In this document: piece after piece, positions 3,369-7,019 of the stretch
Numbering within the stretch: position 1 is the first letter of the stretch
Layout: every line of letters begins with the position of its first letter
Assembly: GCA_021234155.1 (NCBI GenBank)
Contig: JAJEKV010000051.1
Coordinates: 4,902,698 to 4,966,697 of the forward strand
Origin: Isoetes taiwanensis
Taxonomy: Eukaryota; Streptophyta; Lycopodiopsida; Isoetales; Isoetaceae
DNA length: 64,000 nt
Direction: 5' to 3'
Notes under the pieces: model-generated
The model's database searches: none
The model's input: only the letters and a program-made list of their open reading frames with translations
What the model was told of the DNA's origin: nothing
Position numbers and translations under genes: made by a program

Positions 3369-6300
3369 TTAAGAGTTTGATGATATTCTTGCTTTAAGAT
3401 CTTCTTGCCTACAAGTAGAAAGCCATCTAACTGTGCTGGCGACTTGAGAATTATAGAAAGATCTCCCCAACTTTCCATACTTGTTGTAACACTCTGCTTC
3501 CAAAGCTTTTGCGGCATCAGATGCATTATGGCTGCTTCCAGCGAAGAAAAGATTGGTCAAATTAACTGGTTTCAATGTTCCAACATGCCATAGACAGAAG
3601 GAAACTTACGCGTTATTCTGAAGACGTTGTAGAGCTTGTTCAACATTACTCTTCAAACGGCAAACTGCAGCATCACGCAAATCTTGTGCCACAGTCTTCT
3701 TTTCATCACCTTTCTGCTTCTGAAAGATGCAGAGCTTAAAACTGTCAAATATAAGTCTATGCCAGTAGTTCCAAGAAAAACTATCTTATAAAAGCACAAA
3801 ACCACCTGACGCTCCTTTGCTTTGCAACACTCTTCGGCTTGTATTAAAGCATCCATCCTTTTAGAGAGTCCCTTTTTCTTACTCACAACAGTTGCAGCTA
3901 AATCTTTTGCCTCATCTGACAGCAAAAGACAGGACGAGTGTGCTTTGTAAACAACTCTAAATCAGCTTTGTAGGTTAAGCAAACAGATTTTATAACCAAA
4001 AACTATATTACCATCAGAGCTTGAAATTTCTTCTTCAGACTCTACAGCTTCATCATCTTCATGATTCCAAAACTCACTTTCAAGATCCCTCCAATCATTT
4101 TTATTGGAGTTGCTGAGAATCTCAACCATCAAGGATTCTCATTGAAAGTCCATATGCTCCAAAACAATATACCTGTTTATATATACAGATGTCCACAATC
4201 CTTGTTTCGTGCTAGAGACTTCAGCAAGCTCTTTCAATTTTTGTTCCAATCGCTGAGGCCACCGGCATGCATCACACGTTCTTGCACAAAGTGATGGTGA
4301 CACCTATTGATGACCAACTTATTACAAAATCCAGAATCTCCACTAGACATTTTTTAGGAAACCTTGAACTCACCTGCTCTCCAAAGTGAAGCAAAAGTCT
4401 TTGCCTTCTACATCCTTCTCCTTCACACAAAGAAACCACCTGAACCCTATGTATAAATTAGCATAAACGCAAAGAATAAATTTTGAAGCTGCATGTTACA
4501 ACACAAGCTACCTACTTTTGAAAAGGCTTCAAGATTCCTCTTTAACATTAATTTGCCAGAATCCCTTTTCTGGTTCTTCTTCGAAGAACACTTAATAAAA
4601 TATTCCTGCGAATTAATATAATACATGGCATAAGTTGCAAACCCTAAGGTCAATACTTACAAAACTAGATGTCAATACCATACCATATTTTTCTTATCGT
4701 TTAGACCATAATATAGCACACTTCTTGAGGCTTTCTGGTCACGCCCTGCTCTACCTGACTCTTGATAGAATCCCTCTATTGATTTTGGAAGATTATAGTG
4801 GCACACCATTCTGACATCTTTACGATCTATTCCCTACCAACACAAAAAAGGAAATACTTAAAAGGATAGAATAAAGAATGGTGGGCAAGCCAGCAACTTA
4901 CCATACTGCCAGTGAAGTAGGGGGACCAATGTCAACCATGCATAAAAATAGGGCTAGTTAGCGAATTCAAAATGCATTCTTAAAATACATAAAACCAGAT
5001 TTTATTTTGGTTAAATGTGAAATATGTTATAATGTAGCTAAAGCAGGAACTAAGATGTTAGAACAACTTGGTAGTATGCTATACATGTGTTGCAGTCCAA
5101 GCGCAGAAAATTGCCTGTGTGTTACAGAGATTCAATATAGGTTCATTCAAAGATATCTTTATCTGCCATATAAGATATCGCATTCACGTACCCAAATGCA
5201 ACTGTTGCAACTATCACTGGAACCTTCCCGGATACCCATTCATTCAGAGATTTACTGCGAACCTTGTCACTAAGTCCTGCATGATAAACTGTAAAGCAGC
5301 CTAAAACACATAAGTTTGAAGAAGCATAAGGCTTGCATGTGAAAGAAAGGAAGAAAATTGCATCTTAAGAAGTTCACAACCTTAAAACCATAAATTAATG
5401 CAATACTCTTTACATACCTCTGGTAGACAACCCATCATTTAGCAGGCGGAGACCAATCTCATCGCATGTAGCACGGGAATGACAGTAAATAATAGCACAT
5501 TCATCAGGTGCTGACTTCAGCAGCTCCCGTAAATCATCGTAACCATTTTTGAGAATATCTTTATAACGAACTGCCTAACACAAACATGTCGATTGTGCAT
5601 GAGGATAACCAACAGGCACTCCCAGTAAATTTCTTTTCCATAGTAATATTAAATATAGATTACCCTCATAAAAAATGTTTCTGCGGTTGAATGAAGACAC
5701 AAGAATAGATGGCTGGTGTAAATCCAATGATTTGACAACATCTTCCTGCACCCTGCAAATATACATACAAATGGTAAAACACATTCCATATCTATAATGT
5801 CATTGGCAAATGTCAAGTTATATAAGCTTACTTCTTTGCAGCTGTTGCTGTCAATGCTAGGATTGGAACACCAGGCAAAAGCTTTCTAATGATCGAAAGT
5901 TTTCGATAGCTTGGTCTGCACTATAAAAATAATAGGATTTAAAATTATTTTTGGCTCTGACAGTTATACAGGACATCTAATCTTCTATATAATTTTATAC
6001 CATGAACTTATCTCTCCTTTAGATAGTTACCTAAAATCATGTCCCCAAGAAGATATGCAATGTGCCTGCAGAGCATGACGTCTATTATTAAGGGCAAAGG
6101 TACAAAATTGTTGTTTTTTCCTTTCCTCTATAAACTAAACGCATACCTCGTCAATTGCAACCAAAGACAGCAGGCCCCTTCCATAAACCGTCTTCAGCTT
6201 TGTCAAGAAGCTATCAGTCAAAAGTGACTCAGGAGTGATATATAGCAACTTAAGGGAAGGTTTTCCAGACTCGAGACTCTCATAAATCTGCTAGCAGCTA

Positions 6301-7019
6301 AAGAAGTCCATTAATTAACTTAAAGAATTGCTGAATTCTTTTCAGCGTCAAAGATGGAAAACCTGAGATTTGATTTTTGCTGTTTGTGTTGAAGACAAAT
6401 ACTCTGCTGGAACATGATGTCCCTTCAGGGTAGCAACTTGGTTCTCCTGCCCAAGCCCAAGATTACATGATATAGACATAGATTCATAGGAACTATATAA
6501 ATCAAAAGAAATAGATGAGCATGCTGACCATTAAAGCTGTATTCCCAGGCAGCGACCATTGATTAATTATGTCGGACAAAAATGCAGAATATGAGCTTCA
6601 ATGACTAGGTAAAAAAATGCAGCAATCATGACGTACCAATTAATGGTGATATAACAAGCACAATGCCAGATCTTGCAACTGCCGGGATCTCATAACATAA
6701 TGATTTTCCCGCTCCTGTCGGCATTAAGCAGAAGCAATCCCTTCCTAGAGGTATTAAAAAGATGAACCACAGTACACATTACGGAAAACATGTTAATTCA
6801 AATACGGGGAAAATTTCATGCTAATCTTTATGGGATATCAGAAATGAGGAAAGAGAAACCTGAAAGCACTGTTTCGATTGCCTCAAGCTGCAAGCCTCGA
6901 AAAGCAGCGTGTCCAAAGTGCTTATGCAGAAGCTGAAGAAGATGGTCTCGATCAATTCCTTCATTACGACCCTTTTTGGTAGGCAACTGAGATGCCTTGA
7001 GGGGAAGCGGCCTCTTCAT
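3369..7019 (-). CDS. RECQL3: ATP-dependent RecQ helicase, plant RECQL3 type, 19 exons
   Basis: Exons in transcription order: 7019-6860, 6744-6637, 6536-6529, 6446-6363, 6287-6147, 6065-6031, 5915-5832, 5752-5664, 5570-5418, 5300-5192, 4905-4902, 4833-4684, 4605-4516, 4439-4374, 4303-4173, 4112-4012, 3915-3806, 3719-3610, 3531-3369. They total 1896 nt (631 codons plus stop), and every junction is GT-AG and keeps phase. Motifs: Walker A MPTGAGKS (61-68), DEAH (166-169), ALTATAA (about 197-205), VATVAFGMGID (318-328), [10 protein letters not shown] (349-358), then a RecQ zinc-binding region with Cys 410, 415, 433, 437 and 440, an acidic linker, and a C-terminal helical block ending ARISSNS. The start MKRPLPL matches the short N-terminus of the family. 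The enzyme unwinds 3'-to-5' at recombination and replication structures in the nucleus. Arabidopsis RECQL3 is about 80 residues longer at the C-terminus, so this C-terminus is short. A further in-frame ATG lies 16 codons upstream (7067). Confidence 0.94.
4902..4905 (-). other. RECQL3: 4-nt microexon of RECQL3
   Basis: The minus strand reads GGCAG/TATG/GTAAGT. Exon 10 ends TTT-GG and exon 12 begins GGA-ATA-GAT. The four bases complete the glycine and add the methionine of the invariant FGMGID motif, restoring the frame. The donor after it is a perfect GTAAGT. No other way was found to encode this methionine with canonical splice sites. Confidence 0.87.
6031..6065 (-). other. RECQL3: 35-nt exon of RECQL3 carrying the [11 protein letters not shown] block
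   Basis: The DEAH box is split: DE ends exon 5 and AH begins this 35-nt exon, which encodes [12 protein letters not shown]. It is flanked by CTGCAG and GTAACT. It contains no conserved domain beyond the helicase aromatic-rich loop. Confidence 0.9.
6529..6536 (-). other. RECQL3: 8-nt microexon of RECQL3
   Basis: The minus strand reads ...ACAG/CTTTAATG/GTCAGC. The eight bases supply most of Ala-Leu-Met, joining SPLI (end of exon 2) to ENQV (start of exon 4), the helicase motif Ia segment SPLIALMENQV. Without it the frame shifts by 1 nt. Both flanking introns are canonical GT-AG. Confidence 0.9.

Follow-up and report, generated by a model that had tools for sequence, protein, structure and literature searches.

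A RecQ helicase gene of 19 exons

The window, a stretch of 64,000 nucleotides from contig JAJEKV010000051.1 of Isoetes taiwanensis, carries on its minus strand, between positions 7019 and 3369, a RECQL3-like RecQ helicase gene. Its 19 exons sum to a coding sequence of 1896 nt with a single terminal stop, which encodes 631 amino acids; the frame opens with ATG at 7019 and closes with TAA at 3369, the introns measure 60-286 nt, and GT-AG borders are found at 18/18 of them. The features are listed below in window positions, all on the minus strand; exon rows rest on the gene model, with further evidence named where it exists.

3369..7019, RECQL3-like RecQ helicase gene, ATG to TAA (frame, GT-AG borders, RecQ family searches)
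6860..7019, exon 1 (160 nt)
6637..6744, exon 2 (108 nt), with the Walker A motif; 3' end CCATTAATTG
6529..6536, exon 3, 8-nt microexon CTTTAATG, intron phase 1, completing A-L-M of motif Ia SPLIALM (also path enumeration; Cluster 18 has this size and phase in the available text of PMC8831610)
6363..6446, exon 4 (84 nt); 5' end GAGAACCAA (E-N-Q)
6147..6287, exon 5 (141 nt)
6031..6065, exon 6 (35 nt); DEAH is encoded across the join of exons 5 and 6
5832..5915, exon 7 (84 nt)
5664..5752, exon 8 (89 nt)
5418..5570, exon 9 (153 nt)
5192..5300, exon 10 (109 nt), with YHAGL; 3' end GCATTTGG (also PDB alignment)
4902..4905, exon 11, 4-nt microexon TATG, intron phase 2, giving the last base of the Gly codon and the Met of motif V FGMGID (also path enumeration; Cluster 5 has this size and phase in the available text of PMC8831610)
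4684..4833, exon 12 (150 nt); 5' end GGAATAGAT (G-I-D)
4516..4605, exon 13 (90 nt)
4374..4439, exon 14 (66 nt)
4173..4303, exon 15 (131 nt)
4012..4112, exon 16 (101 nt)
3806..3915, exon 17 (110 nt); several alternative borders are also in frame
3610..3719, exon 18 (110 nt); several alternative acceptors are also in frame
3369..3531, exon 19 (163 nt), including the stop codon

The predicted protein has the domains of a RecQ helicase. In Pfam, the 631-aa sequence scored 91.6 bits for DEAD, 71.8 for Helicase_C and 38.1 for RecQ_Zn_bind (cut-offs 26, 23.5 and 25, respectively), and the NCBIfam RecQ family TIGR00614 was matched by a 623-aa version of the model at 434.7 bits against a cut-off of 219.8. 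Among solved structures the best matches of the 631-aa query were chains of human RECQ5 (PDB 8qw9, E 5.9e-104), followed by BLM. The helicase core, SPLIAL, YHAGL, FGMG and the zinc-binding region all align with human RECQ5 (PDB 8qw9, 5lb8 and others), and the residues from exons 3 and 11 fall on SPLIAL(I) and FGMG(V)D; the human protein differs in that its motif V reads FGMGVD and its motif Ia SPLIALI. These RecQ domains, together with human RECQ5 as the best solved relative, would place the host gene as RECQ3 of the AT4G35740 type, given that plant RECQL3 is the counterpart or ortholog of RECQ5.

The 623-aa version differed in the start of exon 10, placed at 5276, and was rejected for a gap that it left opposite YHAGL in the alignment with human RECQ5. 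Moving the start from 5276 to 5300 regained the conserved YHAGL and brought the coding sequence to its total of 1896 nt.

Two microexons in motifs Ia and V

Both microexons have GT-AG introns on either side. One codon base precedes the 8-nt exon, so that the G from exon 2 joined to CTTTAATG reads A-L-M; two codon bases precede TATG, and the GG from exon 10 joined to it reads G-M. When exon 3 is omitted, the frame stops after 119 aa and Pfam finds in the product only a partial DEAD domain, while omission of exon 11 stops it after 325 aa (...ATVAFGE*).

We enumerated the splicing paths across each motif, allowing introns of at least 50 nt, GT-AG, GC-AG or AT-AC borders for one-intron paths, and, for two-intron paths, GT-AG or GC-AG borders (never both GC) around an internal exon of at most 60 nt. 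At motif V, 575 candidate introns gave 8 open in-frame one-intron paths and 105 open two-intron paths; FGMGID was produced by none of the 8 open one-intron paths of any of the three border types and by one of the 105 two-intron paths, which uses the 4-nt exon listed above. At motif Ia there were 116 candidate introns, with 9 open one-intron and 28 open two-intron paths, and SPLIALMENQ came from none of the 9 open one-intron paths, again for all three border types, and from a single two-intron path (1/28), that of the 8-nt exon.

These results bear on an earlier note on this DNA, whose gene model, both microexons and frame argument are real in the sequence. The 19 exons, the 1896 nt, the GT-AG borders throughout and the coordinates of the microexons were all reproduced exactly. 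That frame and residues are lost without the microexons, as the note claimed, is borne out by the early stops at 119 aa and 325 aa, and the continuity of the helicase motifs when they are included is confirmed by the model, the path enumeration and the domain and structure searches. The note had also considered a direct join of exon 10 to exon 12 by alternative borders that would still encode FGMGID; the enumerated one-intron paths contain none.

Correspondence to published plant microexons

Both exons have published counterparts. In the available text of Yu et al. 2022 (PMC8831610), a 4-nt microexon of phase 2 and an 8-nt microexon of phase 1 in RECQ3 (AT4G35740.1) are the conserved Clusters 5 and 18. 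If cluster phase is taken in the usual intron-phase sense, the exon at 6536-6529 is, like Cluster 18, an 8-nt coding exon of phase 1 with introns on both sides, and that at 4905-4902 is, like Cluster 5, a 4-nt coding exon of phase 2 with introns on both sides. The likeness extends to the gene family, the sizes, the phases and the position of the two exons far apart in one gene; the window adds one more plant genome, and the likeness is one of gene, size and phase. In that text only Clusters 4, 12, 39 and 43 are named as specific to flowering plants, and Clusters 5 and 18, being absent from the list, are thus older than the flowering plants; of the 45 clusters, 35 are common to moss, five are found with Selaginella but not moss, and one with an alga.

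The microexons are therefore already known for RECQ3, and what we describe is a sound gene model, not a discovery. The earlier note's view that a 4-nt exon in an invariant motif is extreme was overstated, since beside the 4-nt and 8-nt exons of RECQ3 even 1-nt plant exons are known: according to the available text of PMC8831610, APC11 and VPS55 contain 1-nt microexons in land plants that are missing from reference annotations. These are likewise ultra-short conserved coding exons, although they lie in other genes and are even shorter. Its expectation that such exons often escape automated annotation is in line with the available text of PMC8831610, which documents that misannotation of plant microexons is widespread: of the coding microexons found by the authors' own pipeline, the unannotated share was 81% in rice and 65% in maize, as against 27% for Arabidopsis and 23% for soybean. 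A pipeline blind to microexons would truncate or split the RECQL3 helicase, so the gene is well suited to testing gene-prediction methods.

In the available text of PMC11096116, a later paper, the same 45 tags are applied to 16 plant and algal genomes and RECQ is not named; RECQ likewise does not occur in the available main text of PMC10808074, another plant-microexon paper, or in that of PMC12409088, and RECQ4A is the only RECQ mentioned in the available text of PMC7042379. A literature search on RECQL3 intron positions gave nothing usable.

RECQL3 pieces elsewhere in the genome

The genome-wide searches covered the plant's own 1.66-Gb genome alone. The segment from intron 6 to the middle of intron 10 (window 5935-4950, minus strand) was found at 9 other places in a search that returned 14 rows, one of them the gene itself, with two further matches of 66 bases. 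At the five loci that were compared, the RECQL3-like pieces retain their introns; they therefore derive from DNA, and for the same reason these loci are uninformative on splicing.

Three of the pieces (L019, L020 and L021; G000 C1089, C1038 and C501) lie inside units of 4466, 4528 and 4497 bases that are 93-95% identical in pairwise comparison and have sharp ends in common. The left end is TC after a host A, and the right end consists of the hairpin GCCCGGCATCGCCGGGC, eight bases and CTAG, followed by a host T. A TC left end, and a right-end hairpin with CTAG, between host A and T are features of Helitrons. With up to 3 mismatches, a 33-base pattern taken from the right end had 2119 matches in the genome, against 0 for the reversed control. 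The units thus appear to belong to a large Helitron-like family with a captured piece of the helicase gene, an assignment that is kept from being firm by the TTA found at both flanks of two of the three element copies, a pattern equally expected from a 3-bp target duplication.

One further locus (L017; G000 C907:9357000-9361000) holds at 1366-2214 a rearranged RECQL3 piece that includes exon 12 and TATG between AG and GTAAGT, adjoining a piece of exons 9-10 in changed order. This TATG is common by descent and is no proof of splicing.

Probable splicing of the microexons and alternative readings

A length of 4 or 8 nt leaves no room for exonic enhancers, and recognition of the two exons must therefore rest on splice sites and the surrounding introns. 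The available text of PMC8831610 proposes the same for plant microexons, whose definition it ascribes to sites of the introns on either side and not to exon sequences. On crude leave-one-out matrices built from the 18 sites of this one gene, gtaagt, the donor that follows the 4-nt exon, scored best of 18, as did the acceptor after it (intron 11, 68 nt, 49% T); with its best donor and best acceptor, this downstream intron would be suited to be the first removed. On the same matrices the acceptor before the 8-nt exon was the lowest of 18 and its donor tied for second lowest, so that inclusion of this exon may be less efficient.

Taken together, we consider the gene, with a probability of about 0.95, to be an ordinary plant RECQL3, a RECQ5-type RecQ helicase, that retains the conserved 8-nt microexon of motif Ia and the 4-nt microexon of motif V; both would most likely be constitutive, set by the sites of the flanking introns and not by exon sequence, and would be the counterparts of the published Clusters 18 and 5. 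What is demonstrated is the sequence, the frame, the uniqueness among the enumerated paths, the homology and the match in gene, size and phase; the RNA of this plant is probably spliced in this way, and the microexons are probably orthologous to the published ones. The two published RECQ3 microexons would then be needed for an intact frame here too, which raises no new mechanistic question.

The microexons could in principle be chance matches, the true message having other borders, for instance at non-canonical sites or at the end of an extended neighbouring exon. We counted each pattern in 20,000 dinucleotide shuffles, requiring the intron on either side to measure at least 60 nt. A bare AG-N-ATG-GT, that is, a 4-nt exon with any GT, arose in the 358-nt span in 233 of the 20,000 shuffles, so that this match alone is an event of about 1%; with a GTAAG donor the figure fell to 2/20,000, and an 8-nt pattern coding A-L-M between AG and GT arose in the 190-nt span in 4/20,000. 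The 4-nt exon becomes convincing once its strong donor, the conservation of the motif and the published cluster are considered as well. Since, in addition, no other enumerated path gives FGMGID or SPLIALMENQ, and identical sizes and phases are published for RECQ3 in the available text of PMC8831610, we regard chance as very improbable. Equally improbable is that the locus is a decaying pseudogene in which the model reads fossil exons. The genome does hold several broken RECQL3 fragments at other places, but the window copy has an uninterrupted frame of 631 codons across 19 exons with canonical borders at every intron, and among the genome matches of the protein it is the only place that spans residues 1 to 631. 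Nor is it a retrocopy, and a search of the whole genome for a retrocopy showing the spliced motif V junction, with a 31-base pattern and up to 3 mismatches, gave no match.

Somewhat less improbable, though still unlikely, is that alternative skipping of the 8-nt exon serves as a switch, yielding the 119-aa product or a target for decay. This would fit its weakest acceptor of the 18 and weak donor, the early stop caused by its omission, and the greater intron retention around plant microexons described in the available text of Yu et al. (PMC8831610); that text, however, reads the retained introns mostly as delayed splicing, not skipping, and the site scores come from the 18 sites of one gene. 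A fully regulated inclusion, in which skipping would turn RECQL3 off in some tissues or conditions, seems to us slightly less likely again.

Other features of the window

Window 7665-8398, on the plus strand, holds 2.7 tandem copies of a 277-bp unit that encodes ICADGGANRIFNELPG-like peptides. One of two scanned copies weakly matches thiamin pyrophosphokinase (E 0.0061, 16.9 bits against a cut-off of 30.7) and the other gave no match; the repeat, which lies a short way upstream of RECQL3, has the look of an exon fragment that was multiplied. At window 1-3000, on the minus strand, lies gag-pol sequence with broken frames (open reading frames at 223-783 and 669-1922), presumably Copia-like. Long imperfect CT tracts of up to 1.6 kb occupy 50428-51722, 52572-52921, 59636-61255 and 61671-62991 of the window and lie near short repeats of the type CATTCTAGAA, and the GC skew at 60-64 kb is -0.67.
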